DNA from: Microbulbifer thermotolerans
GTDB taxonomy: Bacteria > Pseudomonadota > Gammaproteobacteria > Pseudomonadales > Cellvibrionaceae
Length of the DNA stretch: 64,000 nt
Direction of reading: 5' to 3'
Assembly: GCF_900112305.1 (NCBI RefSeq)
Contig: NZ_FOKT01000006.1
Location: 248,001-312,000 of the forward strand
In this document: positions 45,717 to 63,127 of the stretch, piece after piece
How positions within the stretch are numbered: position 1 is the stretch's first letter
Layout: each line of letters starts with the position of its first letter
Program-made: the position numbers and the translations under genes
Notes under the pieces: model-generated
What the model was told of the DNA's origin: nothing
What the model saw: only the letters and a program-made list of their open reading frames with translations
Databases searched by the model: none

Positions 45717-48700
45717 TCAATGTCGTACAGGAGTGGTTGTGTACTCCTTGATTACAAGATTTGCAACAGTTAACTCTCCATTATGCCGGAAGTCCACGCT
45801 GATCGTGTTATTTTTCTGTAGTACATCAACGGGCACCGGTATCTCCAGTGTGTTGAAGTAGCGCTCCACAGAATTTTCTTTACGACCTCGCCAGTCTATG
45901 GGTGTCTCGATGGTGTGCCCATTAATGGTCAGAGTGTCAATCTGCAGGAGGCTGTCAGGGGTGTCGTCCTGGCTGGGATAGAGTGCCACGGTGAGACGCA
46001 GTTGTGACTCCGCATAACCGGAAGGTACGGATACATTGTTCACTTGTAAATTTTTTGCACCTCCGGCTACAGATATACGATGGGGTACACTGCCGCCACT
46101 CACGCTGTTACCAAAGTACTTTTTCTCGTCTACGGATTGGTTAATAGCAATAGTACTGTTCAAGGTATAGCGCAGTACCAGAGTAGCGTCAGCCGCAAGA
46201 GTGACCTTGGTCGGCATTTGCTTCATATGGTGTCGCTCCAGCTGTGTATCAAAGTTGTTGTCGAAATGCATATTGCGCAATTCCACATTTTGCAGCTGGG
46301 CGTTATTCAGTCCTGCCACCGTCAGGTCGATGGTTGTATCTACGGTTTCCAGGTTATTGATGATGATAAAAAGTTCATTGTTATTCACATAGGACTGAAC
46401 TTGTACATCCGGGTCGCTGGATACACTGTCCACACGGGTTCCGTCGATATCTGCCCAAAGTTCATAGAATTTAATGTAGTCAGACCACTGCCAATTATCA
46501 CTGTTTAATACAGGCTCTATGAGTAGGCTGTAGTGATAGGGCGCTGTACAGTTACGTACTTCCTCGTACCCGCAGCCACCCGGGTAGTAGCCCCACAATG
46601 GCTTGGCGGGAGTAAAGGGCATGGATTTGATCACGTAATCCGGGCGCTCGAGAATCTGCATTAACATAGCGTTAAAGGACTTAAGTACTTCCGACTCGAA
46701 GCGGGGTTGATGTGCCAGAGTGTTCCAGCCTCCCTGTACCGCACCATACTCGGAAATTACGATGGGTTTTCGGTTGGCCTGGCCATTTTGATACACGTCA
46801 TACCACTCAATCATATCAAGCATGGCGGGGAGGTGACCGTTCCGACGCAGGGTGGACTTGGCATCACTGTTAACGCCGGGCCAGTCGTAAACATGGACGG
46901 AGTAAAAGTCCATGTTGTGTCCGGCTGCATCCATAAACCCTTTCCACATTACGTCCCACTGATACCAATTCTGATCGCGTGTATCGTCGACGGTCGTGGC
47001 CATTGCCTGACGGAAAAACTCTTCCGCTGCAGCCTCTTCGGCTGGATCATCGGCGACTATCCATTGGTCGTATGCGTTGTCTGCGTAGCGGGAAATGCCA
47101 TCGCGACGGTAGAAGTCATGTTGACCCCAGGTCATACCGCCAATCAGCGGAGCCTCGTTGCCCAGTTTTGAGCGTATTTCCTGGGCAACCAGATTATGGT
47201 ATTCCCAAATAGCTTCCTGGTTGGTAACCATAAATTTTCCGGTTTTCATTTCCATATCTGGTTCGTTGATGACTTCCCAGAATTTTGGCATTGGATCGCC
47301 GATATAGCCGTTGCTGGAGTTGGCGTAGTAGTGCTTAAGGTATTGTCCCATCCAGGCGGCAGAGGTTTCGATGTGCATCGGTTGCCAGTCGTGCCAGGTG
47401 GAGCCATTGGCATTCCAGCTGAGGGTGGGGTAGGTGGGGTGTGGATTGGTACCTGCGATCAGTTCCGTTCTGTCGGCACTGAAGCGCTTGTAGAAGGGAT
47501 TGGCTTCATAGTTTTCACGCAGTTCCTTTCCCCGGGTCACCATGTAATCCAGGTCTGGCCAGTTTTCTCGGTTGGGGTCCTCCTTAGTGTCTTGAAATTT
47601 CCAGGTGGCAGTACCATTGTCGCGGCCCAGTGTTACATCCAGAGTGTTGACCAGATAATTGAGCTTGTCGGCATGTCCTTCCCAGTCTTTCTCATAGATG
47701 GTGGTATGTGCAGTGATATGCCGGTTGCGCCCAAAGTCAGAAATGCCCTTAACGCTGTGTTTAATATTCGCGTTGACCGTAACCTTTACACTGTGTGGAT
47801 TGGCTACCTGAGAGGGTGAGCAGCCAGACTCATTGGTAAACTCCTTGGCCGGAGTGGATGGACATTGATCCGTGCCGTTGGCAATGCCATCGCTATCGCT
47901 GTCCTCAAACCCTGTGCATCCTGATGGGGCTACGTTTTCCCCAAAGGGGGTGTCGGGGCATTGGTCCTCTTGATTGGCTATCCCGTCGAGGTCGTCGTCA
48001 TCAGCGCCGGTACTGGCACAGCCTTCAGAATCGACAAAATCCCCAGGTGCTGTGGTTGGACATTGATCCCGGTTATCGGCAATGCCATCTTTATCTGTAT
48101 CCAGCTGAGAAGGCGCACACCCTTCGCTGTTGGCGGTTTCTGATGGATCGGTTCCCGGACAGCTGTCGTTTACATCCGCAATGCCGTCGCTGTCTCCGTC
48201 CAGATCGAGGTCGACGTCACTGATACGCTCAAAAATGACGTAGTCAATATTAAACTGGAAGTCTTGAGTACCTGCGCCGTATATACGAATAGTCAGGTCG
48301 CCGGAAAATAGGTTGATATCAGAGGCGGCGTTGAGCAGGTAGAAGCTGTCCCAACCCCCCTGACTTTGAACTTCACTAGTGTTCTTAGTTACCAGGGCAC
48401 CTTCATGATCTGTTGCCATTAGACCAACCGCCACACCGGAGCTATGTGCGGTACTCACATAATACTTCGGTCGATAAAGGCCTGACTGATCCAGGTGCAG
48501 GTTGTACTCCAGATAGTCGCCGCTATTGAAATAGTTGACGGCAACGCCGCCGTTGATTGCATAGGTGTCGATTTCTCCCCCCACATGGTGTGCACTTTCG
48601 GCTTCCAGCTTAAAAGTCCCCGAAACATGACCACCTTCCTCTGGAGATCCTCCTGAGCTACTGCTTCCTGAGCCAGAACTCGAGGAAGATCCCCCGGATG

Positions 48701-49244
48701 AAGAGCTGGAAGTTGATCCTCCACCGGAACTGGAAGAGCTGTCATCAATGTAGGCAAGTTCCATTTTGTCCAGATTCCATTGCCAGTCGTGATCTCCGCC
48801 TCCGAATAACCGGATCTGCTGTGATCCAGAGGAGAGATGAATACTACCTGCGGGCAACGGTTGAAAATTGTCCCAGCCAGCATTGGGTACATCGGTTCTA
48901 GCCAGTGTTTGCCAGCTGCCATTGTTGTTGACCTGAAAATCAATCCGCGCTCCATCAATGGCTGTGCCGGCGAAATAGGTCAGATCGTATTGTCCCGCTT
49001 GTGGGACGGAAAGAGTATATTCAGCGTAATCGCCCTTGTTGACATAGTTGATGGCAGTAATGCCATTTACTGTGTAGACACTGATTTTTTGTGGCTGACC
49101 ATCGTTGTAGGTACCTCCTACATTGGTAAAGTCTTCGGCCTCTAGACGGTAATCGGCAGCGGTGGCTGCGGTACTGTAGGCGATTGCTGCCGCTAGCACA
49201 GCATGTGCTAAAGGCAGAATGCCTTGAGATTTGGAAAGTCTCAT
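45717..49244 (-). CDS. Multimodular GH86 beta-agarase (CBM6-CBM6-TSP3-GH86)
   Basis: 1175 residues. Signal peptide to about 29, CBM6-like module 31-160 (YRLEAEDFTNVGG), Ser/Gly linker 170-205, second CBM6-like module 212-345, then four calcium-binding thrombospondin type-3 repeats (DxDxDGIxDxxDxCP pattern, 350-480) and the GH86 catalytic domain (490-1175) with Glu661 in WEVINEP and Glu832 in VISEYGA as likely acid/base and nucleophile. Architecture resembles the Microbulbifer AgaO-type enzyme, an endo-beta-agarase; porphyranase activity cannot be excluded for GH86. Secreted or surface-attached. Confidence 0.92.
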   Translation of the reverse strand: MRLSKSQGILPLAHAVLAAAIAYSTAATAADYRLEAEDFTNVGGTYNDGQPQKISVYTVNGITAINYVNKGDYAEYTLSVPQAGQYDLTYFAGTAIDGARIDFQVNNNGSWQTLARTDVPNAGWDNFQPLPAGSIHLSSGSQQIRLFGGGDHDWQWNLDKMELAYIDDSSSSSGGGSTSSSSSGGSSSSSGSGSSSSGGSPEEGGHVSGTFKLEAESAHHVGGEIDTYAINGGVAVNYFNSGDYLEYNLHLDQSGLYRPKYYVSTAHSSGVAVGLMATDHEGALVTKNTSEVQSQGGWDSFYLLNAASDINLFSGDLTIRIYGAGTQDFQFNIDYVIFERISDVDLDLDGDSDGIADVNDSCPGTDPSETANSEGCAPSQLDTDKDGIADNRDQCPTTAPGDFVDSEGCASTGADDDDLDGIANQEDQCPDTPFGENVAPSGCTGFEDSDSDGIANGTDQCPSTPAKEFTNESGCSPSQVANPHSVKVTVNANIKHSVKGISDFGRNRHITAHTTIYEKDWEGHADKLNYLVNTLDVTLGRDNGTATWKFQDTKEDPNRENWPDLDYMVTRGKELRENYEANPFYKRFSADRTELIAGTNPHPTYPTLSWNANGSTWHDWQPMHIETSAAWMGQYLKHYYANSSNGYIGDPMPKFWEVINEPDMEMKTGKFMVTNQEAIWEYHNLVAQEIRSKLGNEAPLIGGMTWGQHDFYRRDGISRYADNAYDQWIVADDPAEEAAAEEFFRQAMATTVDDTRDQNWYQWDVMWKGFMDAAGHNMDFYSVHVYDWPGVNSDAKSTLRRNGHLPAMLDMIEWYDVYQNGQANRKPIVISEYGAVQGGWNTLAHQPRFESEVLKSFNAMLMQILERPDYVIKSMPFTPAKPLWGYYPGGCGYEEVRNCTAPYHYSLLIEPVLNSDNWQWSDYIKFYELWADIDGTRVDSVSSDPDVQVQSYVNNNELFIIINNLETVDTTIDLTVAGLNNAQLQNVELRNMHFDNNFDTQLERHHMKQMPTKVTLAADATLVLRYTLNSTIAINQSVDEKKYFGNSVSGGSVPHRISVAGGAKNLQVNNVSVPSGYAESQLRLTVALYPSQDDTPDSLLQIDTLTINGHTIETPIDWRGRKENSVERYFNTLEIPVPVDVLQKNNTISVDFRHNGELTVANLVIKEYTTTPVRH

Positions 49245-49808: not shown

Positions 49809-52226
49809 CTAGCGTACTCCACGATTTATTGCACTGCTTGTGGAGAATACCTGTAGGGTGGTTGTGCTAACGTAACCACCATCGTCGGGGAATTCAATTT
49901 CCACGGCATTATCTTTGGTTAAATATTCGATGGCCACCGGTATTTCGATAACTCCGAAAAACTGATCCCGGCCCTTACCATCGTAATATTGATCGTACCC
50001 TTGATAATCTTCCGGTACTGATACTTTGTGACCATTGACCGTTACGGAAGGCGTGAGGGATTTGCCGTGGTCGCGACCGATGCCAAGGCGTAGTATCGCC
50101 TCCCCTTCGTCAGACACTTCTACGTTGCTGATCGCAAACTGTAATTTGCTTTTTGCCTCAATGGGTTGCTTGTATTTGTCTGCGTAATATTTTGTCTCCG
50201 AGTTTTCCTCATCTAGTGTGATGTTCTCTTTGTAGTTTAGTTGCAGAACAAGAGTGGCCTCAGGCTTCAGTGTGATTTTTTCGGGAAGCTGCTCGAGGGT
50301 GGTTTCTGAAAGTACCGGGATGCCATCGTCATTGTAGGAGAGCTCCTTGACGGTCACCTCCTGTAACGGATTGGCCCCTGTTCCCAGTGTCGCGAGGTCC
50401 AATATGCTGGTTTCTTCTTCCAGGTTGTTTAACACGATATAAGCGGTTGCGCCGTCTACATAGGCATTGACTTGAACATCCAGATCGCTGGCCCAGCTAT
50501 CTACTCTTGTTCCCTTCACTTCTGCCCACAGCTGGTAGAATTTAACCAGCTCAGTGTATACCCAGGAATCTCCACTCTCAGTGTCGGCTTCCTTTTTCTG
50601 GCGCATCAGGCGATTGGTATAGGGTACGGTTTCAGATTGTCGCCCCCATTCCGCCTTTACGGTAATGAATGGAATGGACTTCAAAATTTGATCCGGGCGC
50701 TCGAGAATGTTCATCATTAACCCGTTAAACGCACGCAGTTTGTAGCCATCCCTTTCCGGCGACCAGGGCTGGTTCATCATGCTGTGAACCGTTGCCCCGA
50801 ATTCTGAAATCAAAAATGGCATGCGTTCGCCGGTGGCCATCAGAGTGTATTGCTCCAGCATATCGAAGGTAGCTTCGAGATTGCTGCCGCGGCGGAGCTT
50901 TCGCTTGCCCTCGATATCCGGGAAGTCATAGAAGTGTAGGGACAGAAAGTCCATTTTTTCTCCGGCGATATCGATGAACAGCTTGTCGCGTTCCTCCCAG
51001 CGATTAAAGTCGTTCTTTTCGAAATCCGGGAAAGCAACGGTATAGCCCCCGATTAGTACGTTGTCGTGAACGGCTTGATCCCAGGGGTCGCGAAATGCGC
51101 GGACTGCATCTGCTACGGCATTGTGGAATTTGAACACCTCCTCCGGCGTTGTGCCTTTATCTTTGTCCGACGGAAAATCCACTAGGTCGTACAGGGGCTC
51201 ATTCATAACTTCCAGAAAAACGGGTTTGGGCTGGCCGTATGTGTCACCCGCTCCGCGGTTAAAGTACTCGTAGAGGAAGTTCGCCATATAGTGACCAACG
51301 GCGGTGCCGAAAGGCTCTTCCTCACTATCTGCGGTGGAAAAGGACCATCCCATACCGGTATCGTCACCATTTGGCCAGTAGGGATGCTGTTGGCCGCCAA
51401 CTACCATATCGGTTGCGCGATGCTCGTGATACCGGGCGAGTTGGGCTCCAGTACTGGTTCCTGTGGTGTAGTTCCAGCGCGCACCACCACCATTGCTTTT
51501 TGCTGCCGTCTCATCGATAAACCCGGGTCGGGATGGGTCTTCCGGCAGTAGGCTCAATTGCCATTTCATGCCTCCGGTATCCCTTCCCAGGTAAACATCG
51601 TACCCCTCCAGGAAGTTTGTCATCAGATCCGGATCTTCATTGGGAGCACCGGCACTCTGACTATTGTTACCGACCCAGTCTTGTTCGGTATTGGAGGCGT
51701 GGATGTTAATGAACTTTCGGCGATCAAATACCGACTCACCGCCTACGGTGTGTCGCATATTCAGGTTGACATCGACTTTTACTGTGTCTTCGTTATTGGT
51801 GGATTCGGCTTTGGTGGTAACACGGAATTCGGCACTGACGCCGCCGACCGTCAGAGTCGCGGTGACCGTAGCGCCGTAGTCAGTGCTCGCGATCAGGCGC
51901 AGAACGACACTGTCTCCGCTATTGACGGTTCCTGTCGAGTTTTGGAAGGGGCCATCATTAATGGAGAACTCACCTCCATTCACGCTGATGTCCGTACTGG
52001 TGTTGATGCCGGTAATCGTGATGGCATTTGAGACTTGTTGACTGCCAGGCTCGGCGTCTGAAACGGCGCCAAAGGTAAAGGCATCTGGCTGTGTGTCTTG
52101 CTGTACGTTGTCTTCTGGGGGTTGTGGCTCCTTGCGATCAGTTTGGTCACTGTCGTCACTACAGGCAGCCAGGAGCAGAGTTAAGAGTATGAGCGCAATT
52201 CGGCCAGGCCGGAAAGGACTGATCAT
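49809..52226 (-). CDS. Lipoprotein GH86 beta-agarase/porphyranase
   Basis: 805 residues. Lipobox LLAAC (Cys22), an acidic linker, an Ig-like/cadherin-like repeat (about 50-135: TITGINTSTDISVNGGEFSIN), then the GH86 domain with Glu343 (LEVMNEP) and Glu475 (LISEFGA). The lipid anchor predicts outer-membrane location, in contrast to the larger secreted GH86 next door, so the two probably act on successive chain lengths or on different galactans (agarose versus porphyran). Divergent from the six-gene catabolic operon, sharing a promoter region with two operator sites. Confidence 0.9.
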   Translation of the reverse strand: MISPFRPGRIALILLTLLLAACSDDSDQTDRKEPQPPEDNVQQDTQPDAFTFGAVSDAEPGSQQVSNAITITGINTSTDISVNGGEFSINDGPFQNSTGTVNSGDSVVLRLIASTDYGATVTATLTVGGVSAEFRVTTKAESTNNEDTVKVDVNLNMRHTVGGESVFDRRKFINIHASNTEQDWVGNNSQSAGAPNEDPDLMTNFLEGYDVYLGRDTGGMKWQLSLLPEDPSRPGFIDETAAKSNGGGARWNYTTGTSTGAQLARYHEHRATDMVVGGQQHPYWPNGDDTGMGWSFSTADSEEEPFGTAVGHYMANFLYEYFNRGAGDTYGQPKPVFLEVMNEPLYDLVDFPSDKDKGTTPEEVFKFHNAVADAVRAFRDPWDQAVHDNVLIGGYTVAFPDFEKNDFNRWEERDKLFIDIAGEKMDFLSLHFYDFPDIEGKRKLRRGSNLEATFDMLEQYTLMATGERMPFLISEFGATVHSMMNQPWSPERDGYKLRAFNGLMMNILERPDQILKSIPFITVKAEWGRQSETVPYTNRLMRQKKEADTESGDSWVYTELVKFYQLWAEVKGTRVDSWASDLDVQVNAYVDGATAYIVLNNLEEETSILDLATLGTGANPLQEVTVKELSYNDDGIPVLSETTLEQLPEKITLKPEATLVLQLNYKENITLDEENSETKYYADKYKQPIEAKSKLQFAISNVEVSDEGEAILRLGIGRDHGKSLTPSVTVNGHKVSVPEDYQGYDQYYDGKGRDQFFGVIEIPVAIEYLTKDNAVEIEFPDDGGYVSTTTLQVFSTSSAINRGVR

Positions 52227-52418: not shown

Positions 52419-52485
52419 ATGGCACTTTGATAAATTCACACATATGACATAGCCGTTTTTCTACAACAATAATGAGAGGCGAGTG

Positions 52486-53970
52486 ATGATCGAAATGACC
52501 GCGAAAGTGAAGGATTTTCTCGGGCAAACGCCCGTTCCCTTCTACTCTGATGGCGCTTGGCAGGCTGGAATCAGCAGACAGTCCATGCTCGTGGAGAATC
52601 CAGCCGACAAATCGGAACTGGCGCAAGTGTCCGAGGCCAGGAGGGCGGATGCAGAGCATGCCATTGAGGCCGCGCATGTCGCCTTCCTGTCCTGGCAGGA
52701 CACTACAAACGCCGAGCGGGCCCGGTTGTTGCGTGCACTGGCAGACTTGTGCCAACGCGATGCGGAAGAGCTGGCTCAATTGGAAGCCCTGGATGTTGGA
52801 AAGCCCGTAGAAAATGCCCGGGGTTTTGATGTGCCTTTCGGTATTGAGTGTCTGCGCTACTATGCCGATTTGTGTGAGAAAGAGCCGTTTGAAAAACCGC
52901 TGGATCTGGCGGGTATGAAGCAGGCAGCTTCAGTTCGCCTCCCCTACGGTGTGGTCGGCTTTATTTTTCCCTGGAACTTTCCTCTTACGTTGTGCCAGTG
53001 GGGCATAGCTCCTGCACTTGCGGCGGGCAATAGTGTGGTAATCAAACCCTCAGAAGTAACGCCATTATCGACTCTTTATCTTGCAAAACTTGCTGACGAA
53101 GCGGGTTTCCCCGCTGGTGTAATCAACGTACTACCGGGCGAGGGGCCGGAAGTCGGTGCCGTATTTACCCGCCACCCCAAAGTACGCTTTGTTTCCTTTA
53201 CCGGATCTTCCCGGGTGGGCCGACAGATAGCAGAAACCTGTGGTGCAAATTTGAAGCCGGTAAAGCTGGAATTGGGTGGCAAGGGTGCCTCAGTTATCTG
53301 TGACGATGCGGATATCAATGCCGCTGCTTCTGGTTTGGCCGGTGCTATCACCTTGAACACCGGACAGGTGTGCTGCACTGCCACGCGCTGGATTGTACAC
53401 GAAAGCATAGCCTCGGAATTTATTGAGAAAGTTAAAGTCGAGCTGGATAAAGTTGTTATTAAGGCCGGCATGAATGAAGACAGTCAAATGGGGCCGCTGG
53501 TGAGTGAGCGTCAGTTGAAAACAGTGGTCGGCTATATTCACAAAGGTCGTGAACAGGGGGCAGAAATCGTTTACGGCGGTCAGCCGTTAAGCGATGCGGA
53601 GCGGTCCGGATATTATGTAACTCCAACGCTGATAATGGGTTGTGAGGACAATATCTGTTTCCGTGAAGAAATATTCGGTCCCGTGGCTTATATCACCACT
53701 TTTAAAGATGATGCGGATGCGGTGCGCCAAGTAAACAGCCTCGATTACGGCTTGGCGAACAGTGTCTGGAGTTCCGATAGCTGCCGGGCTATGGCGATTG
53801 CGAAGAAAATGGTTTCCGGAAATAGCTGGATCAATGCGCACAACGTCTTTGCTTACGGCCTCCCATATGGGGCAGTAAATGCCAGTGGTATGGGCGGCGG
53901 AGTAAACAGCCGGGAAACTATGCTGGACTATACCCGTGGACTCTCCATTGCTGAGCCGGAAGAGGGATAA
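52486..53970 (+). CDS. NAD(P)-dependent aldehyde dehydrogenase
   Basis: 494 residues from the ATG at 52486 (GAGAGG upstream; a GTG one codon earlier is possible). Rossmann motif FTGSSRVG, catalytic Glu in LELGGKG and catalytic Cys296 in GQVCCTATR. Related to betaine- and sugar-aldehyde dehydrogenases. As first gene of an operon controlled with agarases, its most likely substrate is 3,6-anhydro-L-galactose or another galactan-derived aldose; specificity cannot be read from sequence. Two nt separate it from the next gene. Confidence 0.92.
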   Translation: MIEMTAKVKDFLGQTPVPFYSDGAWQAGISRQSMLVENPADKSELAQVSEARRADAEHAIEAAHVAFLSWQDTTNAERARLLRALADLCQRDAEELAQLEALDVGKPVENARGFDVPFGIECLRYYADLCEKEPFEKPLDLAGMKQAASVRLPYGVVGFIFPWNFPLTLCQWGIAPALAAGNSVVIKPSEVTPLSTLYLAKLADEAGFPAGVINVLPGEGPEVGAVFTRHPKVRFVSFTGSSRVGRQIAETCGANLKPVKLELGGKGASVICDDADINAAASGLAGAITLNTGQVCCTATRWIVHESIASEFIEKVKVELDKVVIKAGMNEDSQMGPLVSERQLKTVVGYIHKGREQGAEIVYGGQPLSDAERSGYYVTPTLIMGCEDNICFREEIFGPVAYITTFKDDADAVRQVNSLDYGLANSVWSSDSCRAMAIAKKMVSGNSWINAHNVFAYGLPYGAVNASGMGGGVNSRETMLDYTRGLSIAEPEEG

Positions 53971-53972
53971 AA

Positions 53973-54971
53973 GTGGACCGTGAAGAGCTGGCCAGTAATC
54001 TGCTTGAAAAAGGTTTGCTGCAGTCAAAGGAAGTAACTTTTACTGCACTTTCCGGTGGTGTTTCCTGTGAAATCCTCTTAGTAGACGATGGCAGCGCGCG
54101 CTTCGTTGTAAAGCGTGCACTGAAAAAGCTCAAAGTCAAGGATGACTGGTTTGCAGATGTCAGAAGAAATATCACCGAGCAGGAGTATCTTCGCTATGTA
54201 GGAGGTATTCTTCCTGCGGCAGTTCCTCAAATTATCTATGCGGATAACGAAAGATATTTCTTCTGTATGGAAATGATCGAGGGCGGCATGACAACATGGA
54301 AGTCACGTCTTCTGGAAAGGGATTACAACAGCAGCTATGCCCAACTTGCGGGTAAATACCTGGGAGTTGTTCATCGATCATCTATCGATGAACAAGCTGT
54401 GCATGAGAAATTTGACACGGCAAAAGACTTTTATGAGCTGCGTATTGATCCTTATCTCTTAAAAACAGGTGATCGCCATCCTAGATTGAAAAAGTACTTT
54501 ATTGAAGAGGCTGACCGTATATCCGATACCGCCCGGTGTCTTATTCACGGAGACTACAGTCCAAAAAACCTTATGGTAGGTGAAGGGCGTCTGGTGATTC
54601 TCGACTGCGAAGTGGCATGTTTTGGTGATCCTGTATTTGATCTGGCTTTTCTACTGAATCATCTGTTCCTGAAATCAATCCATCAAAAAAAAGATGCACA
54701 GAAATTATTTGTACTGGTTGGCGATGTATGGAAAAGCTACCAAAAGGCGGCTGGAGCCGTAGTAGATCAGGGTTTTGAGGCACGGCTCTGTCATCTTATT
54801 CCCATGCTGATGTTGGCGCGGATAGACGGGAAGTCCCCTGCGGAATATTTGTCCGATGAAAGCCAGCAGTCTGTGCGAGAATTCAGTTACACCGCAATAC
54901 CTTTTCCCCAGAAAAAACTAGATGAATTTTGCCACCAATGGGCTGATTTTATGTCGGTGGAGAAAGCATGA
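53973..54971 (+). CDS. APH-fold small-molecule kinase
   Basis: 332 residues from a GTG start 2 nt after the previous stop. Phosphotransferase features: SGGVSCEILLV nucleotide turn, His192-Gly-Asp194 with Asn199 (IHGDYSPKN), Asp211-x-Glu213 (LDCEVACFGDP). Related in outline to methylthioribose kinase and other sugar-like APH kinases. Translationally coupled to the dehydrogenase before and, by a 4-nt ATGA overlap, to the enolase paralogue after. It is likely to phosphorylate the acid made by the dehydrogenase, giving the enolase-like enzyme a phosphorylated substrate. This is inference. Confidence 0.85.
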   Translation: MDREELASNLLEKGLLQSKEVTFTALSGGVSCEILLVDDGSARFVVKRALKKLKVKDDWFADVRRNITEQEYLRYVGGILPAAVPQIIYADNERYFFCMEMIEGGMTTWKSRLLERDYNSSYAQLAGKYLGVVHRSSIDEQAVHEKFDTAKDFYELRIDPYLLKTGDRHPRLKKYFIEEADRISDTARCLIHGDYSPKNLMVGEGRLVILDCEVACFGDPVFDLAFLLNHLFLKSIHQKKDAQKLFVLVGDVWKSYQKAAGAVVDQGFEARLCHLIPMLMLARIDGKSPAEYLSDESQQSVREFSYTAIPFPQKKLDEFCHQWADFMSVEKA

Positions 54972-56254
54972 ATATAAAGAAAATTGACGCTTTTCAGATT
55001 TACGATTCCCGTGGGTTTCCTACTGTAGAAGTTGAGGTGACTCTGGATAATGGCGTCACCGGATATGGGCTTGTGCCATCTGGCGCATCAACTGGGCAGT
55101 TCGAAGCGTTGGAGTTGCGCGACGGAGATAAAAATCGATTTAGAGGAAAATCGGTTTTCAAAGCAATCGATAATATCCGTAAAGAGATAGCGCCTTCATT
55201 AATCGGGTTTCCCGTTACAGATATGAAATCGATCGATATGAAGTTGATTGAATTGGATGGAACCAATAATAAATCGCGTTTAGGGGCTAATGCGACTCTT
55301 GGTGTATCAATGGCCTGCGCTCGTGCAGCGGCAAATTTTCGCGGAGTCTCTCTCTTTGAATACCTGGGAAAAGGGCAGGGGCACCTGCTTCCTCTTAATG
55401 AAATTCAGATTCTTGGCGGTGGCGCGCATGCAAATTGGGCTATTGATATTCAGGATTTCCTGATAATCGCCGTGGGAGCGAAAAGTTACCAGGAAACTCT
55501 GGAAATGACTTTCAATATCTACCATGCAGCCGGTGAGATAATGCGGTCAAGGGGGAAGAGTGTTGGACTTGCAGACGAAGGTGGATGGTGGCCGGATTTC
55601 TCCAGTAACGAGGAACCATTCGAAGTGCTACTGGAAGCGATACGAATGGCCGGTTACGAAGCCGGTAAAGATATCGCTATTTCTCTGGATATTGCTGCCA
55701 GTGACCTATTTGATGGAAGGGTTTATCACCTGAAAAAAGATGGGGTCTCGTATACCCCTAAAGAATTCTGTGAATTAATGATCAGTTGGTGCAATAAGTA
55801 CCCAATCATATCGATAGAAGATCCCTTCGCTGATACAGATTATGAAAGCTGGCGTGCGTTTACCGAGCAAGTGGGTGGAAGGGTTCAGGTAATAGGAGAT
55901 GACCTTTTTACCACCAATATTGATCGAATAAAAAATGGTATAGAAAACCGACTGGCAAACGCGGTATTGATTAAGCTTAATCAAATAGGAACAGTTTCAG
56001 AGACTATATCTGCTATCGAGATGACTCAAAGTGCTGGCTGGCTGCCGGTTGTTTCGGCCCGTTCTGGAGAAACAGAAGACGCATTTATCGCACATCTTGC
56101 AGTTGCTACCAATGCTGGTCAGCTTAAGGTGGGATCATTTTCAAGAAGTGAGAGAATGGTGAAATGGAACGAGGTGTTGCGGATTGAGAGAATCCTGGGA
56201 AATAGGGCTAACTTTATAGGAGGTGAGTTGTACAGGAGAATATTAACGGATTAG
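54968..56254 (+). CDS. Enolase paralogue with altered active site
   Basis: 428 residues, full length for an enolase. PSGAST (37-42), His154 (GGAHAN), Glu204 (ADEGG), Mg ligands Asp241 (DIAASD), Glu284 (SIEDPF) and Asp311 (GDDLF), base Lys336 (IKLNQIG), Arg365-Ser366 and Lys387 are kept. Two usual residues differ: Asp163 replaces the Glu of DIQEFM, and Ala364 replaces the His of SHRSGETED (yeast Glu168 and His373). These loosen the phosphate/carboxylate pocket, so 2-phosphoglycerate dehydration is doubtful. Placement between an acid-sugar kinase and a sugar-acid-type transporter predicts a phosphorylated aldonate-like substrate. Not a housekeeping enolase by context. Confidence 0.88.
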   Translation: MNIKKIDAFQIYDSRGFPTVEVEVTLDNGVTGYGLVPSGASTGQFEALELRDGDKNRFRGKSVFKAIDNIRKEIAPSLIGFPVTDMKSIDMKLIELDGTNNKSRLGANATLGVSMACARAAANFRGVSLFEYLGKGQGHLLPLNEIQILGGGAHANWAIDIQDFLIIAVGAKSYQETLEMTFNIYHAAGEIMRSRGKSVGLADEGGWWPDFSSNEEPFEVLLEAIRMAGYEAGKDIAISLDIAASDLFDGRVYHLKKDGVSYTPKEFCELMISWCNKYPIISIEDPFADTDYESWRAFTEQVGGRVQVIGDDLFTTNIDRIKNGIENRLANAVLIKLNQIGTVSETISAIEMTQSAGWLPVVSARSGETEDAFIAHLAVATNAGQLKVGSFSRSERMVKWNEVLRIERILGNRANFIGGELYRRILTD

Positions 56255-56301
56255 TTGATTTCAGATATTTTGAAAAAATTTTCACGTAAAAACGATTATG
56301 T

Positions 56302-57582
56302 ATGAACAAATATAATAAATTCCATGTTCTAACGCTAATCTTTATTAGTGTAGTTATAAACTACATGGATCGCACCAATATATCAGTAGCCGCTACATCG
56401 ATATCCGAAGACTTGGCACTGACACCTGTAGATATGGGAATCGTATTTTCTGCCTTTGCCTGGACCTATTCTGTGATGCAAATACCGGGTGGGATGATCG
56501 TGGATACGGTCCGTGTGCGTATTTTGTATCCATTTATTCTTATAGCTTGGTCTATAGCTACCATCGTACAGGGACTGGTGTCTTCTCTGGCAGCTATGGT
56601 TGGTTGCCGTATGATAGTAGGGGCTTTCGAAGCTCCCTCTTATCCGGCAAATAACAAAATCGTGACACAGTGGTTCCACGAGCGCGAGCGCGCTAGTGCC
56701 ATCGCCGTTTACACTTCCGGTCAATTTATTGGTCTCGCCTTCTTGATGCCATTACTAGCTCTTATTCAGGATTGGTTTGGGTGGAGGGGGCTCTTTTTTT
56801 TATCGGGTGTGATTGGTATTGCATGGGCAGCGGTATGGTATTTTTTGTATCGTGATAATACAGAGGGTAGAGTACGTGCCATACCGTCTTCCGAAGACAG
56901 CACGGAAAATCTGAATTCGTGCCCGGAGACGGAATCCATAAGCTGGGCCAATATACGTTTGGCATTCTCAAACCGAAAACTCTGGGGAATATATATCGGT
57001 CAGTTCTGCCTTGGAAGTACGTTGATATTCTTCCTGACCTGGTTTCCGACATACTTGGCAGAGTATCGTGGGCTTGGAGATTTGAAAACGGGCTTTCTCG
57101 CTTCTATTCCGTTCATCGCTGCATTTTTCGGAGTGTTGTGCTCTGGGTTTTCTTCCGACTGGCTGGTAAGGCGCGGATATACTAACGAGTTTGCTCGTAA
57201 GACACCAGTGATCCTGGGGCTGTTTCTGTCTGGCAGTGTGGTCGCTGCGAATTATGTCGACTCTATGGCTGCGGTTACTTTCTTTCTCTCGTTGGCATTT
57301 TTTGGCAATGGGTTGGCTTCTATCAATTGGGTTTTTGTGTCTCTTATTGCGCCTCGACATATGGTTGGGCTAGTGGGTGGGTGCTTCAATTTTATTGGTG
57401 GGCTGTCTGCAGTGATTATTCCTGTGGCGATTGGATTTCTCGTGCAGGATGGCGATTTTCGTCCCGCTTTAATTTTGATTGGCGGTTTGGCTTTAACGGG
57501 GGTGTGTTCCTACCTGTTTCTGGTTGGGCGTGTAGAAGAAATATCATTTTCAGAAAGTGAATCAGAAAAAGTTATCGCATGA
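56302..57582 (+). CDS. MFS transporter, anion:cation symporter (ACS) type
   Basis: 426 residues, twelve predicted membrane helices. N-terminal INYMDRTNISVAATSIS and the loop motif after helix 2 match the ACS family (ExuT, GudP, DgoT), which takes up hexuronates, aldarates and galactonate with protons. It follows the enolase paralogue by 47 nt. This suggests inner-membrane uptake of an acidic or anhydro-sugar unit, such as neoagarobiose-derived acid. Confidence 0.9.
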   Translation: MNKYNKFHVLTLIFISVVINYMDRTNISVAATSISEDLALTPVDMGIVFSAFAWTYSVMQIPGGMIVDTVRVRILYPFILIAWSIATIVQGLVSSLAAMVGCRMIVGAFEAPSYPANNKIVTQWFHERERASAIAVYTSGQFIGLAFLMPLLALIQDWFGWRGLFFLSGVIGIAWAAVWYFLYRDNTEGRVRAIPSSEDSTENLNSCPETESISWANIRLAFSNRKLWGIYIGQFCLGSTLIFFLTWFPTYLAEYRGLGDLKTGFLASIPFIAAFFGVLCSGFSSDWLVRRGYTNEFARKTPVILGLFLSGSVVAANYVDSMAAVTFFLSLAFFGNGLASINWVFVSLIAPRHMVGLVGGCFNFIGGLSAVIIPVAIGFLVQDGDFRPALILIGGLALTGVCSYLFLVGRVEEISFSESESEKVIA

Positions 57583-57620
57583 TTAGCATTTCAAAAACGA
57601 TAAATGGTTATGGAGTTAAT

Positions 57621-59963
57621 ATGGAACATTCAATGAAGTTCCTGTCAGCAGTGTTGCTTTCATCTTTCATTGTATCTGGGTGTGGTGAGAACAGCGCCGA
57701 CGCCTCCTCCTCTGTATACAGTTCTGGAGGGGAAGGAAGATCCTTTGGAAACATAAATGAAAGGTCTGAATTTGTTCTATGGAACTTCGATCAAGGAAAT
57801 ACACCTCAGGAAATAAAATTAGAAAATGCCGAAGCTGAATTGGTGTCTGGTCGGTCGGGAAAAGCGCTCAAAATCCGCCTATTGTCTAGGGATAACTACA
57901 TATCATCTTTTACCTTTGACGCAGAAACAGCGTGGGATTGGAGCGCTTTGGGAAATTTTGCTTTTGCACTGGATATTGCCAATAGGGAGCCAACGTCAGT
58001 TCATCTTTATGTAAAGGCAACTGACCGGGATGGCAAGGTACATAGCCGAAGTTTCGTGGTTCCTGAGAACTCCAGTGGGACATACTTTTTGGAATTGAAA
58101 GGACCGGATCTCTCAGTGGATACGGGGATACGATCCAATCCGCCGAGCTGGAACACCCAGTTTCAGGAAATGATCTATCGCTGGGGAAATAAAAAACTTA
58201 ACCTAAGTGCTATAGAAAGCGTTGAGTTTTCGGTAACCGGTGTCCTGGAGGATAAAACACTGGTTATCGATAATGTTCGCTTGATTCAGCCTGATTCTCT
58301 GGATGAGCTATATCTGGTGGAATTGGTGGATAAGTTCGGACAGAACAACAAGCTGGAATTCGCGAATAAAGTTCACTCAGAGGAGGAGCTAAAGCGGTTG
58401 GCAGAAGAGGAGCTGGCTCAACTGCGTAAGACTCCCTGGGAAGGTCGTTCCCGTTTTGGTGGTTGGGCGGAAGGGCCGCGTTTAAAAGCAACCGGTTATT
58501 TCCGGACAGAAAAAGTGAACGGAAAATGGGCTCTGGTTGATCCCGATGGCTATCTTTTCTTCTCCACAGGAATCGCTAATGTCCGCCTGGCCAACACCTC
58601 GACTATCACTGGATACGATTTTGACCATTCACTTATTCCGCAGAGGAAACCGGGCGACCTAACACCGGAAGACTCTCTGGGCCTGAATCGAGTGCCAGAT
58701 AAAGCGATTCCAACTCGTCACGTAAGCTCCAGGCTTAGAGCTGATATGTTTACCTGGCTCCCAAAATATGATGAACCCCTCGGTATGAATTATGGTTATC
58801 GACGTGAGGTTCATACGGGAATTCTGGAGCGTGGAGAAACCTTTAGTTTTTACCGGGCAAACCTGCAAAGGAAGTATGGCATCAATGATGATAAGAAGCT
58901 GATGGAAAAATGGCGGGAGGTAACAGTTGACCGTATGCTTAGCTGGGGATTTACCTCCTTTGGTAACTGGATTGATCCCGATTATTACCAATTGAATCGC
59001 TTTCCCTATTTCGCTAACGGCTGGATCATCGGTGACTTTAAGACGGTAAGCAGTGGCAATGACTACTGGAGCCCCCTGCCAGATCCGTTTGATCCACTAT
59101 TTAAGGAGCGGGCCTATATTACCGCTGAGCAGATTTCCCGGGAGGTTCAGGACAATCCCTGGTGCGTCGGCGTATTTATAGACAATGAGAAGAGTTGGGG
59201 ACAGGAAGGGTCTATCAAATCGCAATATGGAATTGTGATCAATACACTCTCTCTGGATGCCCGGAACAGCCCTACGAAAACACAGTTCCTCCATTTGATG
59301 CGCGATAAGTACAAGGACGTAAGCAAGCTCAACGACGCGTGGAATGTCAAACTAGACTCCTGGGATGAGTTTTCCAAGGGTGTATCCCTGGCGGAGTTTA
59401 ATGATACTGTTGTCAGCGACCTTTCTGCCATGCTGCAGCATTATGCTGATCAGTATTTCAAAGTTGTACGCGAAGCGGTCAAGCACTATATGCCAAATCA
59501 CTTGTACATGGGCGCTCGTTTTGCGGACTGGGGTATGACGCCGGAAGTGCGCGGAGCCGCAGCCCGTTATGCCGATGTGGTCAGCTATAACTACTACAAG
59601 GAAGGTGTAAGCGATAAGTTCTGGCACTTCCTCAAGGAAATCGACCGTCCGAGCATAATCGGTGAGTTCCATAATGGTTCCTTGGATTCTGGTTTGCTGA
59701 ACCCCGGTCTGATACATGCCAGTTCTCAGGCGGATCGTGGCAAGAAATACGCTGAGTATATGAATAGCGTAATTGATAACCCTTACTTTGTCGGAGCGCA
59801 CTGGTTTCAATATATTGATTCTCCGTTAACCGGTCGCGCTTACGATGGTGAAAACTATAATGTCGGTTTTGTGAGCGTGGCTGATATACCCTATTCGCCA
59901 CTTATTGAGTCAGTGAAGGCCGTTAATAAAAATCTATATCAAAGAAGGTTCGGTGCACTGTAA
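57621..59963 (+). CDS. GH50 lipoprotein beta-agarase (exo-type)
   Basis: 780 residues from the ATG at 57621 (GGAG upstream). Lipobox VSGC near residue 21, an N-terminal CBM-like beta-sandwich (about 55-220), then the GH50 barrel with Glu523 (VFIDNEKSWG) and Glu682 (IGEFHNG), 159 residues apart as in Saccharophagus Aga50D (about 161). GH50 enzymes of this type release neoagarobiose from neoagaro-oligosaccharides. Lipid anchoring keeps it at the cell envelope. Fifth gene of the catabolic operon. Confidence 0.92.
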   Translation: MEHSMKFLSAVLLSSFIVSGCGENSADASSSVYSSGGEGRSFGNINERSEFVLWNFDQGNTPQEIKLENAEAELVSGRSGKALKIRLLSRDNYISSFTFDAETAWDWSALGNFAFALDIANREPTSVHLYVKATDRDGKVHSRSFVVPENSSGTYFLELKGPDLSVDTGIRSNPPSWNTQFQEMIYRWGNKKLNLSAIESVEFSVTGVLEDKTLVIDNVRLIQPDSLDELYLVELVDKFGQNNKLEFANKVHSEEELKRLAEEELAQLRKTPWEGRSRFGGWAEGPRLKATGYFRTEKVNGKWALVDPDGYLFFSTGIANVRLANTSTITGYDFDHSLIPQRKPGDLTPEDSLGLNRVPDKAIPTRHVSSRLRADMFTWLPKYDEPLGMNYGYRREVHTGILERGETFSFYRANLQRKYGINDDKKLMEKWREVTVDRMLSWGFTSFGNWIDPDYYQLNRFPYFANGWIIGDFKTVSSGNDYWSPLPDPFDPLFKERAYITAEQISREVQDNPWCVGVFIDNEKSWGQEGSIKSQYGIVINTLSLDARNSPTKTQFLHLMRDKYKDVSKLNDAWNVKLDSWDEFSKGVSLAEFNDTVVSDLSAMLQHYADQYFKVVREAVKHYMPNHLYMGARFADWGMTPEVRGAAARYADVVSYNYYKEGVSDKFWHFLKEIDRPSIIGEFHNGSLDSGLLNPGLIHASSQADRGKKYAEYMNSVIDNPYFVGAHWFQYIDSPLTGRAYDGENYNVGFVSVADIPYSPLIESVKAVNKNLYQRRFGAL

Positions 59964-60011: not shown

Positions 60012-61496
60012 ATGAGAGTGACTCATCTGATTGCGGTGCTAGTATCTATTGCTGCTATATCTGAGGCTATTGCTGGACCTGCAGAAAGGCCAAATATTCT
60101 GTTAATTCTTGCAGACGATCTCGGATATGCCGATACCGGATTTACTGGCGCCAAGGATATTGAGACACCTAATCTGGATATGTTAGCCAGCGGAGGAATC
60201 ACGTTTACTAACGGATATGTTACTCATCCCTATTGCGGCCCTTCGCGGGCCGGATTGATGACCGGGCGCTATCAGGCCAGGTTCGGGATGGAAAACAATA
60301 GTACTTATTCACCATTTGATAACTATATGGGACTGCCGGTCTCGGAAAAAACCTTTGCCAAGCGGCTGCAAGAAGTTGGATACCGTACTGGTATTGTCGG
60401 TAAGTGGCATTTGGGAGCCGCGCCGCCATTTCATCCGAACAACCGGGGTTTCGATCATTTCTATGGCTTCCTTTCAGGGGGGCACTCTTATTTTCCTGAT
60501 AGCGTATCTAATCGGGTGCCTTTGGAATTGGAGGATGGCCGGGCAGATTATATGGCTAATGAAGGTGGCTACTTGCCACTTGTTCGAAATGCGGGAGCTG
60601 GTGAGTTCAATGAATATCTGACTCGTGCTCTGAGCCGGGATGCAGCGCAATTCGTGCGTGAGGGAAGTGAGCCATTTTTTCTATTTCTCTCCTATAATGC
60701 GCCCCATGCGCCTCTTGAAGCCCCAGAAGAGACCATTAAGAAATACAATCATATACAAGACCCTGAGAGACGTGTTTATGCGGCGATGATTGATGAGATG
60801 GATTCAGGAGTGGGCATGGTTATCGAATCTTTGAAAAAATCGGGAAGATTTGATAATACCTTGATATTTTTCCTGTCTGATAACGGTGGAGTATATCCAG
60901 AATATTGGATGCCAAATAGCGATTGGGCCGATAACCGCCCGTTTCGGCGTGGAAAAGTCAGTTTGACTGAAGGGGGGATTCACGTTCCATTTGTTGCTCA
61001 CTGGCGTGATAAATTGTCTCCCGGAAAATTTGATGGCTTGGTTTCCTCATTAGATATTGCTGCCACAGCGGTTGCGTTGGGTGGTGCAGAAGTTCCTGAG
61101 GGAAAATTGGATGGGGTGGATCTCATGCCGTATCTAACTGGCGAGAAAAATGGATCACCACATCAAGCTCTCTTTTGGCACCTGGAAGAGGGTGATGGGA
61201 ATACCTGGGCTGTGCGCACGGAAGATGCAAAGTATATGTATCAAAATCTCCCAGGTGTAGGTCGCAGTTTCTTTGATATGCGCAGTGATCCTTATGAAGA
61301 GAATAACCTGGTGGATCAGTTTCCGGAGCGTCAGTCCCAATTGGCGGAACTTTGGAACCGATGGAATTCGGAAAATAAGCAAAATATTTTATTGCAGGCG
61401 AATGATTATCAGAAGCGGCGTCAGGATTTCTATAAGGCGCTATATCAAGAGCGTGTTCGACATTCTAATGAACGTAAACCTATTGTAGTGAACTGA
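60012..61496 (+). CDS. Secreted S1 sulfatase
   Basis: 494 residues with a signal peptide (ends AISEAIAG). Formylglycine motif Cys75-Gly-Pro-Ser-Arg ([13 protein letters not shown]), metal site LADDLGYAD, and GKWHLGAAP. Family S1 and needs oxidation of Cys75 by a formylglycine-generating enzyme (not seen in the window). Resembles marine S1 sulfatases that remove sulfate from agar/porphyran or carrageenan units. Last gene of the operon, 48 nt after the GH50. Confidence 0.92.
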   Translation: MRVTHLIAVLVSIAAISEAIAGPAERPNILLILADDLGYADTGFTGAKDIETPNLDMLASGGITFTNGYVTHPYCGPSRAGLMTGRYQARFGMENNSTYSPFDNYMGLPVSEKTFAKRLQEVGYRTGIVGKWHLGAAPPFHPNNRGFDHFYGFLSGGHSYFPDSVSNRVPLELEDGRADYMANEGGYLPLVRNAGAGEFNEYLTRALSRDAAQFVREGSEPFFLFLSYNAPHAPLEAPEETIKKYNHIQDPERRVYAAMIDEMDSGVGMVIESLKKSGRFDNTLIFFLSDNGGVYPEYWMPNSDWADNRPFRRGKVSLTEGGIHVPFVAHWRDKLSPGKFDGLVSSLDIAATAVALGGAEVPEGKLDGVDLMPYLTGEKNGSPHQALFWHLEEGDGNTWAVRTEDAKYMYQNLPGVGRSFFDMRSDPYEENNLVDQFPERQSQLAELWNRWNSENKQNILLQANDYQKRRQDFYKALYQERVRHSNERKPIVVN

Positions 61497-61714: not shown

Positions 61715-63127
61715 TTAGTGTACTGCCTCTGGTGTTTTCGGTGTACGGTATTCATCCATTCGTTGCATCGCTTTTCCTTCATACTCCCGCTTTAACTGCC
61801 ATCTTGGCCGTTCCAGATTGAGCTCCCACTGGAATAGCTTTTTGTAGAGAGCGGCTAACTTATCGGGATGCTTCAGTGCCAAGTTATTGCTTTCTCCTAC
61901 GTCCACCGAAAGGTTGTAAAGCTCCGCAGGACGATCTGGAAAACGTAATAGTTTCCAGTCGCCATCCCGTATGGCACCACGGTTTTCTTTCTTCCAGTAG
62001 AGTGTCTCGTGCGGCTTGGTTTTGGCGATTCCCTGAATAAATGGCAGCAGATTGACGCCGTCAATATCCTCCGGAAGGCTCTCCTTACCACCAGCGGCAT
62101 AATAAAATGTTGGAAGTAGATCCAGGGTAATGATCGGGTGATTGTAGGATATGTTTTTCGGTAGTTTTTTCGGCCAACTCATCAGAAATGGGACGCGAAT
62201 GCCTCCTTCCAGATGCGTTGCTTTAGTTCCGCTGAGCGGGTAGTTGTTGGAGGCATTGTGGTCAGTTGGACCTCCATTATCGTTAGTGAATACAAGCAGT
62301 GTGTTTTCAGTTAGCTGTAATTCATCCAGAGTGGATAGTAATTTTCCCACTCCGCGGTCGAGAGCTCTGGTCATGGCCGCGACTTTTTGCCTATTTCCAC
62401 TGAGGGTGGGGAAGGCCTGGATATCTTCCGGCAGGGCGTCCATAGGTGCATGCACTGCGTTAAAGGATAAATACAGAAAGAAAGGATTTGATCGGTTGCG
62501 TTTAACGAATGCGACCGCTTCATCTGCTAGAGCATCGGTCAGATAGCGGCTTGTTTCTGCGTAACTGCCGAAATTTCGTTCGAGAAAGTTCTCTGTTAGA
62601 TGATGATTGGGGTTGTTTTCAGAGAATGGAAAATATGAACGTGCGCCGCCGCGAAAACCATAGAATTCATCAAATCCGCGGTTTAATGGGTGAAACCGGT
62701 CCGCATTACCCAGGTGCCATTTGCCTAGGATGGCAGTTCTATAGCCCAGGGGCTTCAGATAGTCGGCGATGGTTTTTTCATCGACAGGGAGGCCCATGTC
62801 GTCTCCGGTTGTACCACTTTTACTCATGTAGCCGGGAACATTATTTTCTTCAAAACCGAATTTCTGCTGGTATTTCCCGGTGATCAAGCCAGCTCTAGAG
62901 GGGCCGCATACAGCGGCACTTACGTATGCCTGCTGGAAGCGCACACCGGTTTCGGCAATACGGTCGATATTGGGTGTTTGGAATACTTGGCTACCTTGAA
63001 AGCTGAAATCGGCATATCCCGCATCGTCAGCCAAGATTAAAATGATGTTTGGTTTTTTAGGTGACTCTACGGCTGCGCTGACTGCGGAAATGAGTCCAAG
63101 CAGTAACAAAATGATTCTTATAAACAT
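61715..63127 (-). CDS. Secreted S1 sulfatase
   Basis: 470 residues with a signal peptide (ends SAVSAA). Formylglycine motif Cys74-Gly-Pro-Ser-Arg ([14 protein letters not shown]), [17 protein letters not shown] and the C-terminal [17 protein letters not shown]. About the same subfamily as the upstream sulfatase but clearly diverged, so a different sulfate position or polymer is likely. Single gene with an operator-like ATTGTTAACAAA 48 bp before its start. Confidence 0.92.

Follow-up and report, generated by a model that had tools for sequence, protein, structure and literature searches.

A kinase paired with an enolase paralogue in an agar operon of Microbulbifer thermotolerans: a putative phosphorylating route of sugar-acid dehydration

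The kinase-enolase module in the agar operon

In Microbulbifer thermotolerans (NCBI RefSeq assembly GCF_900112305.1), an APH-fold kinase and, directly downstream, a paralogue of enolase are encoded in a stretch of 64,000 nucleotides on contig NZ_FOKT01000006.1 (positions 248,001 to 312,000 of the forward strand; the whole stretch is called the window below). These two genes, referred to here as the pair, lie between the genes of an aldehyde dehydrogenase and a transporter. An earlier note on this DNA had listed the four genes as adjacent, and all four open reading frames are present between positions 52483 and 57582, followed by an agarase gene:

52483..53970, forward strand: aldehyde dehydrogenase (ALDH) gene (PF00171, 509 bits)
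53973..54971, forward strand: APH-fold kinase gene with a GTG start (PF01636, 67 bits)
54968..56254, forward strand: enolase paralogue gene (PF00113, 311 bits, and PF03952, 179 bits)
56302..57582, forward strand: gene of an MFS transporter of the anion:cation symporter (ACS) type (PF07690, 185 bits)
57579..59963, forward strand: GH50-type agarase gene (PF17992, Agarase_CBM, 231 bits)

The ALDH stop is separated from the GTG start of the kinase gene by 2 nt, the kinase and paralogue genes share the 4 nt ATGA (54968-54971) as the earlier note had read them, and the MFS gene begins 47 nt beyond the paralogue gene. The end of the MFS gene overlaps by 4 nt with the start of the agarase gene, whose product we take to belong to family GH50. 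This agarase gene, overlapping the MFS gene, places the kinase-enolase module within an agar operon.

The genes for ALDH, kinase and enolase paralogue are found together in the window and in all eight other agar-type Microbulbifer loci, while the MFS gene is present in six and the GH50-type agarase gene in five of these eight within the retrieved stretches (neighbouring genes of compared loci were re-checked by tblastn). On a plasmid of Persicobacter, ALDH, kinase and enolase are 60, 46 and 71% identical to the window proteins, respectively, and no GH86, MFS or GH50 gene was detected within the 19 kb seen. The window ALDH contains the motifs GQVCC and ELGG, is 32-33% identical to three other ALDHs encoded downstream on the same contig and reached no NCBIfam equivalog cut-off among the matches listed (25 of 45 families). 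An ALDH encoded on a Vibrio nigripulchritudo plasmid (52% identity) was set aside as part of a different, polyol-like cluster without a listed kinase-enolase pair. The MFS protein scores 338 bits against the D-galactonate transporter family TIGR00893, under the cut-off of 395.

Occurrence of the kinase and the paralogue

The kinase was found in 10 of 48 Microbulbifer genomes and the enolase paralogue in exactly the same ten, nine of which are of the agar type and one of which (G011; G, C, L and f numbers are our labels for genomes, contigs, loci and families) is of a different subtype. Identical sets of 10 in 48 would arise by chance with a probability of 1.5e-10, assuming independence of the genomes, which is untrue of relatives. 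In a sample of the phylum, the kinase profile matched 9 of 398 genomes (own genome included), all nine with the paralogue, and in a sample of the class five of 369 genomes besides the own one, each with an adjacent paralogue. The kinase was further detected in 34 of 249 genomes of family f212, in 16 of 248 of family f223 and in 32 plasmid records, of which all 13 examined hold the paralogue. Plasmid carriers of the pair include Persicobacter (Bacteroidota), Rhodococcus (Actinomycetota) and two haloarchaea. The paralogue is present in 16 of 16 kinase genomes with listed enolases, even where the two genes are unlinked; in four f212 genomes with the kinase (G809, G818, G853 and G873) it is encoded elsewhere in the genome.

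Within flanks of approximately 1.5 kb, 52 of 65 kinase loci contain a neighbouring enolase gene on the same strand, and all 52 of these enolases carry Ala at the position of a catalytic His considered below. In the remaining 13 loci, the paralogue lies about 5 kb away in two and about 7.5 kb away in one; four further f212 genomes with the kinase yielded no locus and are outside these counts. Pairwise distances among kinases and among their partner enolases are correlated (r = 0.84, 66 pairs; best of 1000 permutations, 0.135). Chance proximity of the two genes was rejected in view of the co-occurrence among congeners, in the phylum and on plasmids, of the adjacency and of this correlation, which support functional coupling of the kinase and its enolase-fold partner as a linked, widespread family. 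The succession of a kinase and a protein of the true enolase fold pointed out in the earlier note thus recurs widely, and the search proposed there for the same gene pair and its context in other genomes returned it from Pseudomonadota, Bacteroidota, Actinomycetota and haloarchaea.

A DNA pattern encoding ARSGETED, which misses variants such as SARSGESED in G616, matched ten of the 398 phylum-sample genomes, namely eight of the nine kinase genomes as well as G783 and G785. In the latter two genomes (L195 and L196; G785:C1:2217316 and G783:C1:615440), which belong to one genus, the start of the kinase is joined in a single frame to the terminal part of the enolase, and this joined frame is read as the relic of a deletion affecting both genes. 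Kinase matches with one in-frame stop each were found at G507:C72:196774-197757 and G1247:C2:574533-575510, possibly due to decay or sequencing error.

Active site of the paralogue and properties of the kinase

The housekeeping enolase of M. thermotolerans is encoded separately (G000:C13:211950; the window is G000:C13:248001-312000) and is 44% identical to the paralogue. At the sequence level, the paralogue is a member of the enolase family, with 542.5 bits against the enolase equivalog TIGR01060 (cut-off 300) and 311 bits against Enolase_C; its score against MR_MLE_C, 24.9 bits, lies below the cut-off of 29.4. The ten structures ranked highest against an AlphaFold2 model of it (pLDDT 90) are without exception enolases, with TM-scores of 0.95-0.97. 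Ser41, His154, Glu204, Asp241, Glu284, Asp311, Lys336, Arg365, Ser366 and Lys387 are kept in the paralogue and are invariant in alignments of 15 and of 20 paralogues. We take Lys336 to be the catalytic base, Glu204 the counterpart of the general acid Glu211, Asp241, Glu284 and Asp311 the three metal ligands, and Ser41, His154, Arg365, Ser366 and Lys387 presumably bind the phosphate at C2.

Five positions are changed (Gly150, Asp163, Ala202, Ala364 and Val388 in the paralogue). They were compared in 68 paralogues and 16 housekeeping enolases, with fragments shorter than 300 residues and duplicates excluded; positions 155, 162-163, 168, 207 and 393 are numbered after the own housekeeping enolase. 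The equivalent of yeast His373 is Ala in 68 of 68 paralogues and His in all 16 housekeeping enolases, a difference which itself defined the two groups, the other four changes being independent of that label. Glu168 is replaced by Asp in every paralogue and is Glu in every housekeeping enolase, and three further replacements occur in 68 of 68 paralogues and none of the 16 housekeeping enolases: Asn155 (before GG-x-HA) by Gly or Ser, Gly207 (before DEGG) by Ala, and Thr393 (after the second Lys) by Val or Ile. Presumably, His373 and Glu168 (yeast numbering) surround the leaving C3 hydroxyl together with Glu211, so that the paralogues lack the leaving-group residues His373 and Glu168 of enolase. 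Loop positions 162-163 vary by subgroup (mostly Arg-Arg; Trp-Ala in the agar type), as would be expected if the tails of the substrates differ. Lys345 and Glu211 of enolase are treated in part of PMC8495383.

A tree calculated for 90 enolases divides 71 paralogues from 19 housekeeping enolases at one branch (SH-aLRT 99), no archaeal enolase being included among the latter; the agar-type group and Persicobacter fall together with a support of 100 on a long stem (0.84). This was a quick tree without bootstrap, rooted for drawing only, from which fragments shorter than 380 residues and duplicates were excluded. The paralogue resembles enolase (phosphopyruvate hydratase, TIGR01060) in its full-length fold, Lys base, Glu acid, metal and 2-phosphate ligands, but differs from it in carrying Ala for His373 and Asp for Glu168, and in the separate branch, the kinase partner and the mostly catabolic neighbours. 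These data support the view that it is not an ordinary glycolytic enolase, and it is proposed to be a putative beta-eliminating enzyme of 2-phospho acids. To our knowledge, enolase is usually treated as a single-reaction enzyme. The paralogues of L033, L034, L035 and L036 carry the names eno or phosphopyruvate hydratase in public plasmid records, which would be a misnaming if the proposal is right.

The kinase belongs to the APH-fold family (PF01636, cut-off 23.2), and the motif HGDxSPKN, in agreement with the catalytic pattern HGDxxxxN, is present in all 66 enolase-paired kinases; a stricter second motif is matched by 52 of them. Methylthioribose kinase is likewise a member of the APH family, and the best PDB match of the window kinase is 2olc (40 bits). 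That identity was rejected on a score of 57 bits against the methylthioribose kinase cut-off of 275, and the genomic partner here is an enolase. The protein is proposed to be a small-molecule kinase, putatively a 2-kinase of a 2,3-dihydroxy acid. The glycerate kinases known to us have folds other than APH.

Proposed reaction and its alternatives

The reading to which we incline, with slightly more confidence than doubt, is that the pair dehydrates an extended 2,3-dihydroxy acid by phosphorylating it first, a 2-phospho acid being formed and then subjected to enolase-type elimination. Judged from the gene order, ALDH would oxidize an aldehyde sugar released at the agar/porphyran locus to the acid, and the kinase would phosphorylate the C2 hydroxyl of the latter, as suggested by the 2-phosphate-binding residues retained in its enolase partner. 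In the paralogue, the conserved Lys would remove the C2 proton and the C3 oxygen would be expelled, yielding a substituted phosphoenolpyruvate (PEP), i.e. a PEP-like enol phosphate; the exchanges of His for Ala and Glu for Asp on the leaving-group side would make room for a sugar tail on C3. The enol phosphate might donate its phosphate to ADP in a reaction of the pyruvate kinase type or lose it, and the resulting 2-keto-3-deoxy acid would pass to KdgK and an aldolase or to diketo-acid enzymes. A KdgK-like PfkB kinase encoded in the window (37998..38969) possibly catalyzes this downstream step. Candidates for the agar-derived acid are L-galactonate, an anhydrogalactonate or glycerate. Of the model in the earlier note, phosphorylation of an acid followed by beta-elimination in an enolase-like enzyme persists as the best mechanism, while the role of the pair as a stand-in for a cycloisomerase was given up for the reasons stated below.

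The main reason to regard the pair as a substitute for a dehydratase is the empty dehydratase position in clusters of relatives. An FAH hydrolase gene lies beside the paralogue in 8 of 14 loci scanned, with products 51-100% identical to the FAH protein of Roseibium. The closest PDB entry to the Paracoccus FAH protein is 8gsr, an L-2,4-diketo-3-deoxyrhamnonate hydrolase (277 bits; next entry 184). For the SDR encoded next to it, the third-best PDB match, behind two unnamed SDR entries, is 6d9y (258 bits), described in part of PMC11199699 as a putative L-2-keto-3-deoxyrhamnonate (L-KDR) dehydrogenase, and another SDR at this locus resembles D-xylose 1-dehydrogenase (332 bits, cut-off 400). The non-phosphorylating diketo route of L-rhamnose and L-fucose, in the sections of PMC11199699 dealing with it, consists of dehydrogenase, lactonase, dehydratase, KDX 4-dehydrogenase and FAH hydrolase, the aldonate dehydratase standing between sugar oxidation and the last two enzymes. 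The FAH and SDR neighbours in several relatives match these last two. In the window itself, no gene for FAH, SDR or KDX 4-dehydrogenase adjoins the pair. Unlike in that route, the kinase and the enolase occupy the place of the dehydratase in five of the eight FAH loci, where no match to MR_MLE and IlvD/EDD seeds was obtained (other dehydratase families were not sought), and no dehydratase is named in the PLSDB gene table, which is incomplete, for 41 kb surrounding the pair of Paracoccus. The pair of G011 (L030) is likewise accompanied by SDR, SDR and FAH genes, even though its enolase belongs to another subclade; it is surrounded by glycosidase genes of the GH2 and GH20 types and a gene for a sodium:solute symporter. 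Haloarchaeal plasmid pairs (L035, L190) have neighbours named MR_MLE (several), SDR and ketol-acid reductoisomerase, and may act on a branched 2,3-dihydroxy acid.

Several observations weigh against this reading. MR_MLE homologues are encoded about 3-13 kb from the kinase in the other three of the eight FAH loci; because of these, of the short stretches (most extend 8-10 kb to each side) and of the further dehydratase families left unsought, the argument from the missing dehydratase is not clean. The agar operon contains no gene for the removal of the enol phosphate. A first step catalyzed by ALDH would be better suited to a free aldehyde than to a pyranose. Ten of the 65 kinase loci, all from f212 (L133-L142), are without a paralogue within the 12-19 kb seen; for six of them this refers to that stretch, the rest of the genome not having been searched. 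A homologue of 2-hydroxyacid dehydrogenase adjoins the kinase in six of these ten loci. In Rhizobium (L034) and its relatives L071 and L072, a PEP carboxylase gene lies at a distance of one gene from the kinase, and several pairs of f212 adjoin a 2-hydroxyacid dehydrogenase gene; such neighbours would fit plain PEP as the product equally well. The PEP carboxylase gene of Cupriavidus (L039) lies about 8 kb from the kinase. Genes of the VOC/ring-cleavage type occur near PEP carboxylase, 2-hydroxyacid dehydrogenase and kinase in L034, L071, L072 and L039.

These PEP carboxylase and 2-hydroxyacid dehydrogenase neighbours are among the points in favour of a glycerate module, in which the kinase would form 2-phosphoglycerate, perhaps the L form, the paralogue would convert it to PEP, and ALDH would oxidize glyceraldehyde released by an aldolase. 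We regard this as unlikely, yet as the main alternative. The order of acid, 2-phospho acid and enol phosphate is that of glycerate 2-kinase and enolase in the branched Entner-Doudoroff pathway, and L-glycerate would explain the remodelled enolase. Further neighbours consistent with it are pyruvate kinase, whose gene lies 2.5 and 4.5 kb from the pair in L066 and L068 only, both of the same genus, a gene of the isocitrate/isopropylmalate dehydrogenase family adjoining the pair in L067 and, next to the ALDH, kinase and enolase genes of Persicobacter, a class II aldolase, a PfkB kinase and a gene resembling that of fucose isomerase (28.8 bits, cut-off 29.3). However, D-glycerate requires no special enolase, and the conserved Lys and ligands favour the usual face of C2, so that L-2-phosphoglycerate would presumably need a new base; the dehydratase gap of the FAH clusters would also stay unfilled. 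A route shared with Persicobacter through its isomerase was dropped, as no match to this isomerase was obtained in the 48 Microbulbifer genomes, in a search without positive control whose empty answer proves nothing.

In a specific version of the model in the earlier note, the acid would be 3,6-anhydrogalactonate, the ring of which would be opened by the enolase after 2-phosphorylation, in parallel to the anhydrogalactonate cycloisomerase ACI. The agar operon with ALDH as its first gene is in line with this version, and the C3 ring ether would be a possible beta leaving group. The steps of anhydro-L-galactose (AHG) and D-AHG degradation are known from PMC9706016 and PMC5698469, and according to the parts of these papers concerned with red-algal galactans, ACI and DauB act after ALDH. 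ACI (5xd7 from Vibrio EJY3) and DauB (5olc) are, like the paralogue, members of the enolase superfamily; in contrast to it, they belong to the MR_MLE subgroup and act without phosphorylation of the substrate, and homologues of both are encoded elsewhere in this genome. An ACI homologue (517 bits to 5xd7) was found at C13:353932-355080 (L026:2933-4084), 42 kb past the end of the window, followed by ADH-, SDR- and ALDH-like genes (L026:4088-7383), which together probably form an anhydro-L-galactose locus. The statement of the earlier note that no muconate-type cycloisomerase occurs in the agar region thus holds inside the window and not for the genome.

Among the Microbulbifer genomes, 11 of 48 encode ACI, including all nine with the agar-type module, which probably encounter anhydrogalactonate; two of the 11 are without the module. 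A replacement of missing ACI by the module, as implied in the earlier note, was rejected in view of the ACI homologues in the own genome and in all nine agar-type genomes; the module rather appears to travel with agar users and to serve something else or something additional. Moreover, the window ALDH and the ALDH linked to ACI share only 33% identity, the former being linked to the pair instead, and L-anhydrogalactonate is 2S as opposed to 2R in 2-phospho-D-glycerate. The ring-opening version is therefore considered improbable. The genome encodes six proteins that score above the MR_MLE_C cut-off; five of these are found on the contig of the window, one of the five within the window itself (16829-17923, C13:265255, 183 bits), for which the earlier note had suggested a dipeptide epimerase. 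Approximately 15-20 kb past the end of the window, an ALDH gene precedes genes for an MR_MLE protein, which matches galactarolactone cycloisomerase 4ggb with 307 bits and DauB 5olc with 296 bits, and for a KDPGal-aldolase-like protein. This cluster (L024:13332-18896 and L025:160-813), which begins with genes for a sugar porter and an SDR, is possibly a locus for carrageenan sugars.

According to a further version, which we hold to be very improbable, the kinase phosphorylates C3 and the paralogue expels phosphate rather than hydroxide, so that the keto acid is formed directly. No enzyme would then be needed for dephosphorylation, and none is encoded in the agar operon; however, the residues taken to bind the C2 phosphate (Ser41, His154, Arg365, Ser366 and Lys387) are invariant in the aligned paralogues. 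The full enolase fold and the equivalog score above the cut-off would suit a spare ordinary enolase lying by accident next to an unrelated kinase, but this is scarcely credible, as the two genes occur together and side by side in several phyla and the paralogues have their active-site changes in common.

If dehydration by prior phosphorylation is the correct reading, a new enzyme function would be hidden under a textbook name in an enolase clade that is linked to a kinase and altered at the leaving-group site, and a new pathway of algal and plant sugar acids with new PEP-type metabolites would be added to those known. On a wider reading, the pair would constitute a third way of dehydration beside the dehydratases of the enolase superfamily (MR) and the Fe-S type (IlvD/EDD). 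This wider reading, that of an ATP-primed route operating in agar, rhamnose/fucose-type, aromatic and haloarchaeal sugar-acid pathways of two domains, in which a dedicated APH kinase would form 2-phosphoaldonates and the enolase clade would convert them to PEP-like enol phosphates with the phosphate recoverable as ATP, is advanced tentatively, our doubts somewhat outweighing our confidence. No description of such a kinase-enolase pair was found in the open-licence literature searched, most subscription papers and preprints lying outside its scope.

Further genes of the window are listed here with the KdgK-like kinase mentioned above:

37998..38969, reverse strand: KdgK-like PfkB kinase (NF052444, 242 bits, cut-off 400; PF00294, 139 bits)
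45717..49244, reverse strand: second GH86-type enzyme, with CBM6 and TSP3 repeats (domain search)
49809..52226, reverse strand: GH86-type beta-porphyranase/agarase, divergent neighbour of the operon (PF18206, PF18040)
60012..61496, forward strand: sulfatase (PF00884, 211 bits)
61715..63127, reverse strand: sulfatase (PF00884, 196 bits)

The assignment of the divergently encoded beta-porphyranase/agarase to GH86 is our assumption. Homologues of the second GH86-type gene were detected in all eight other agar-type loci, in some of them cut by the end of the stretch, and the divergent GH86-type neighbour is kept in all eight as well.

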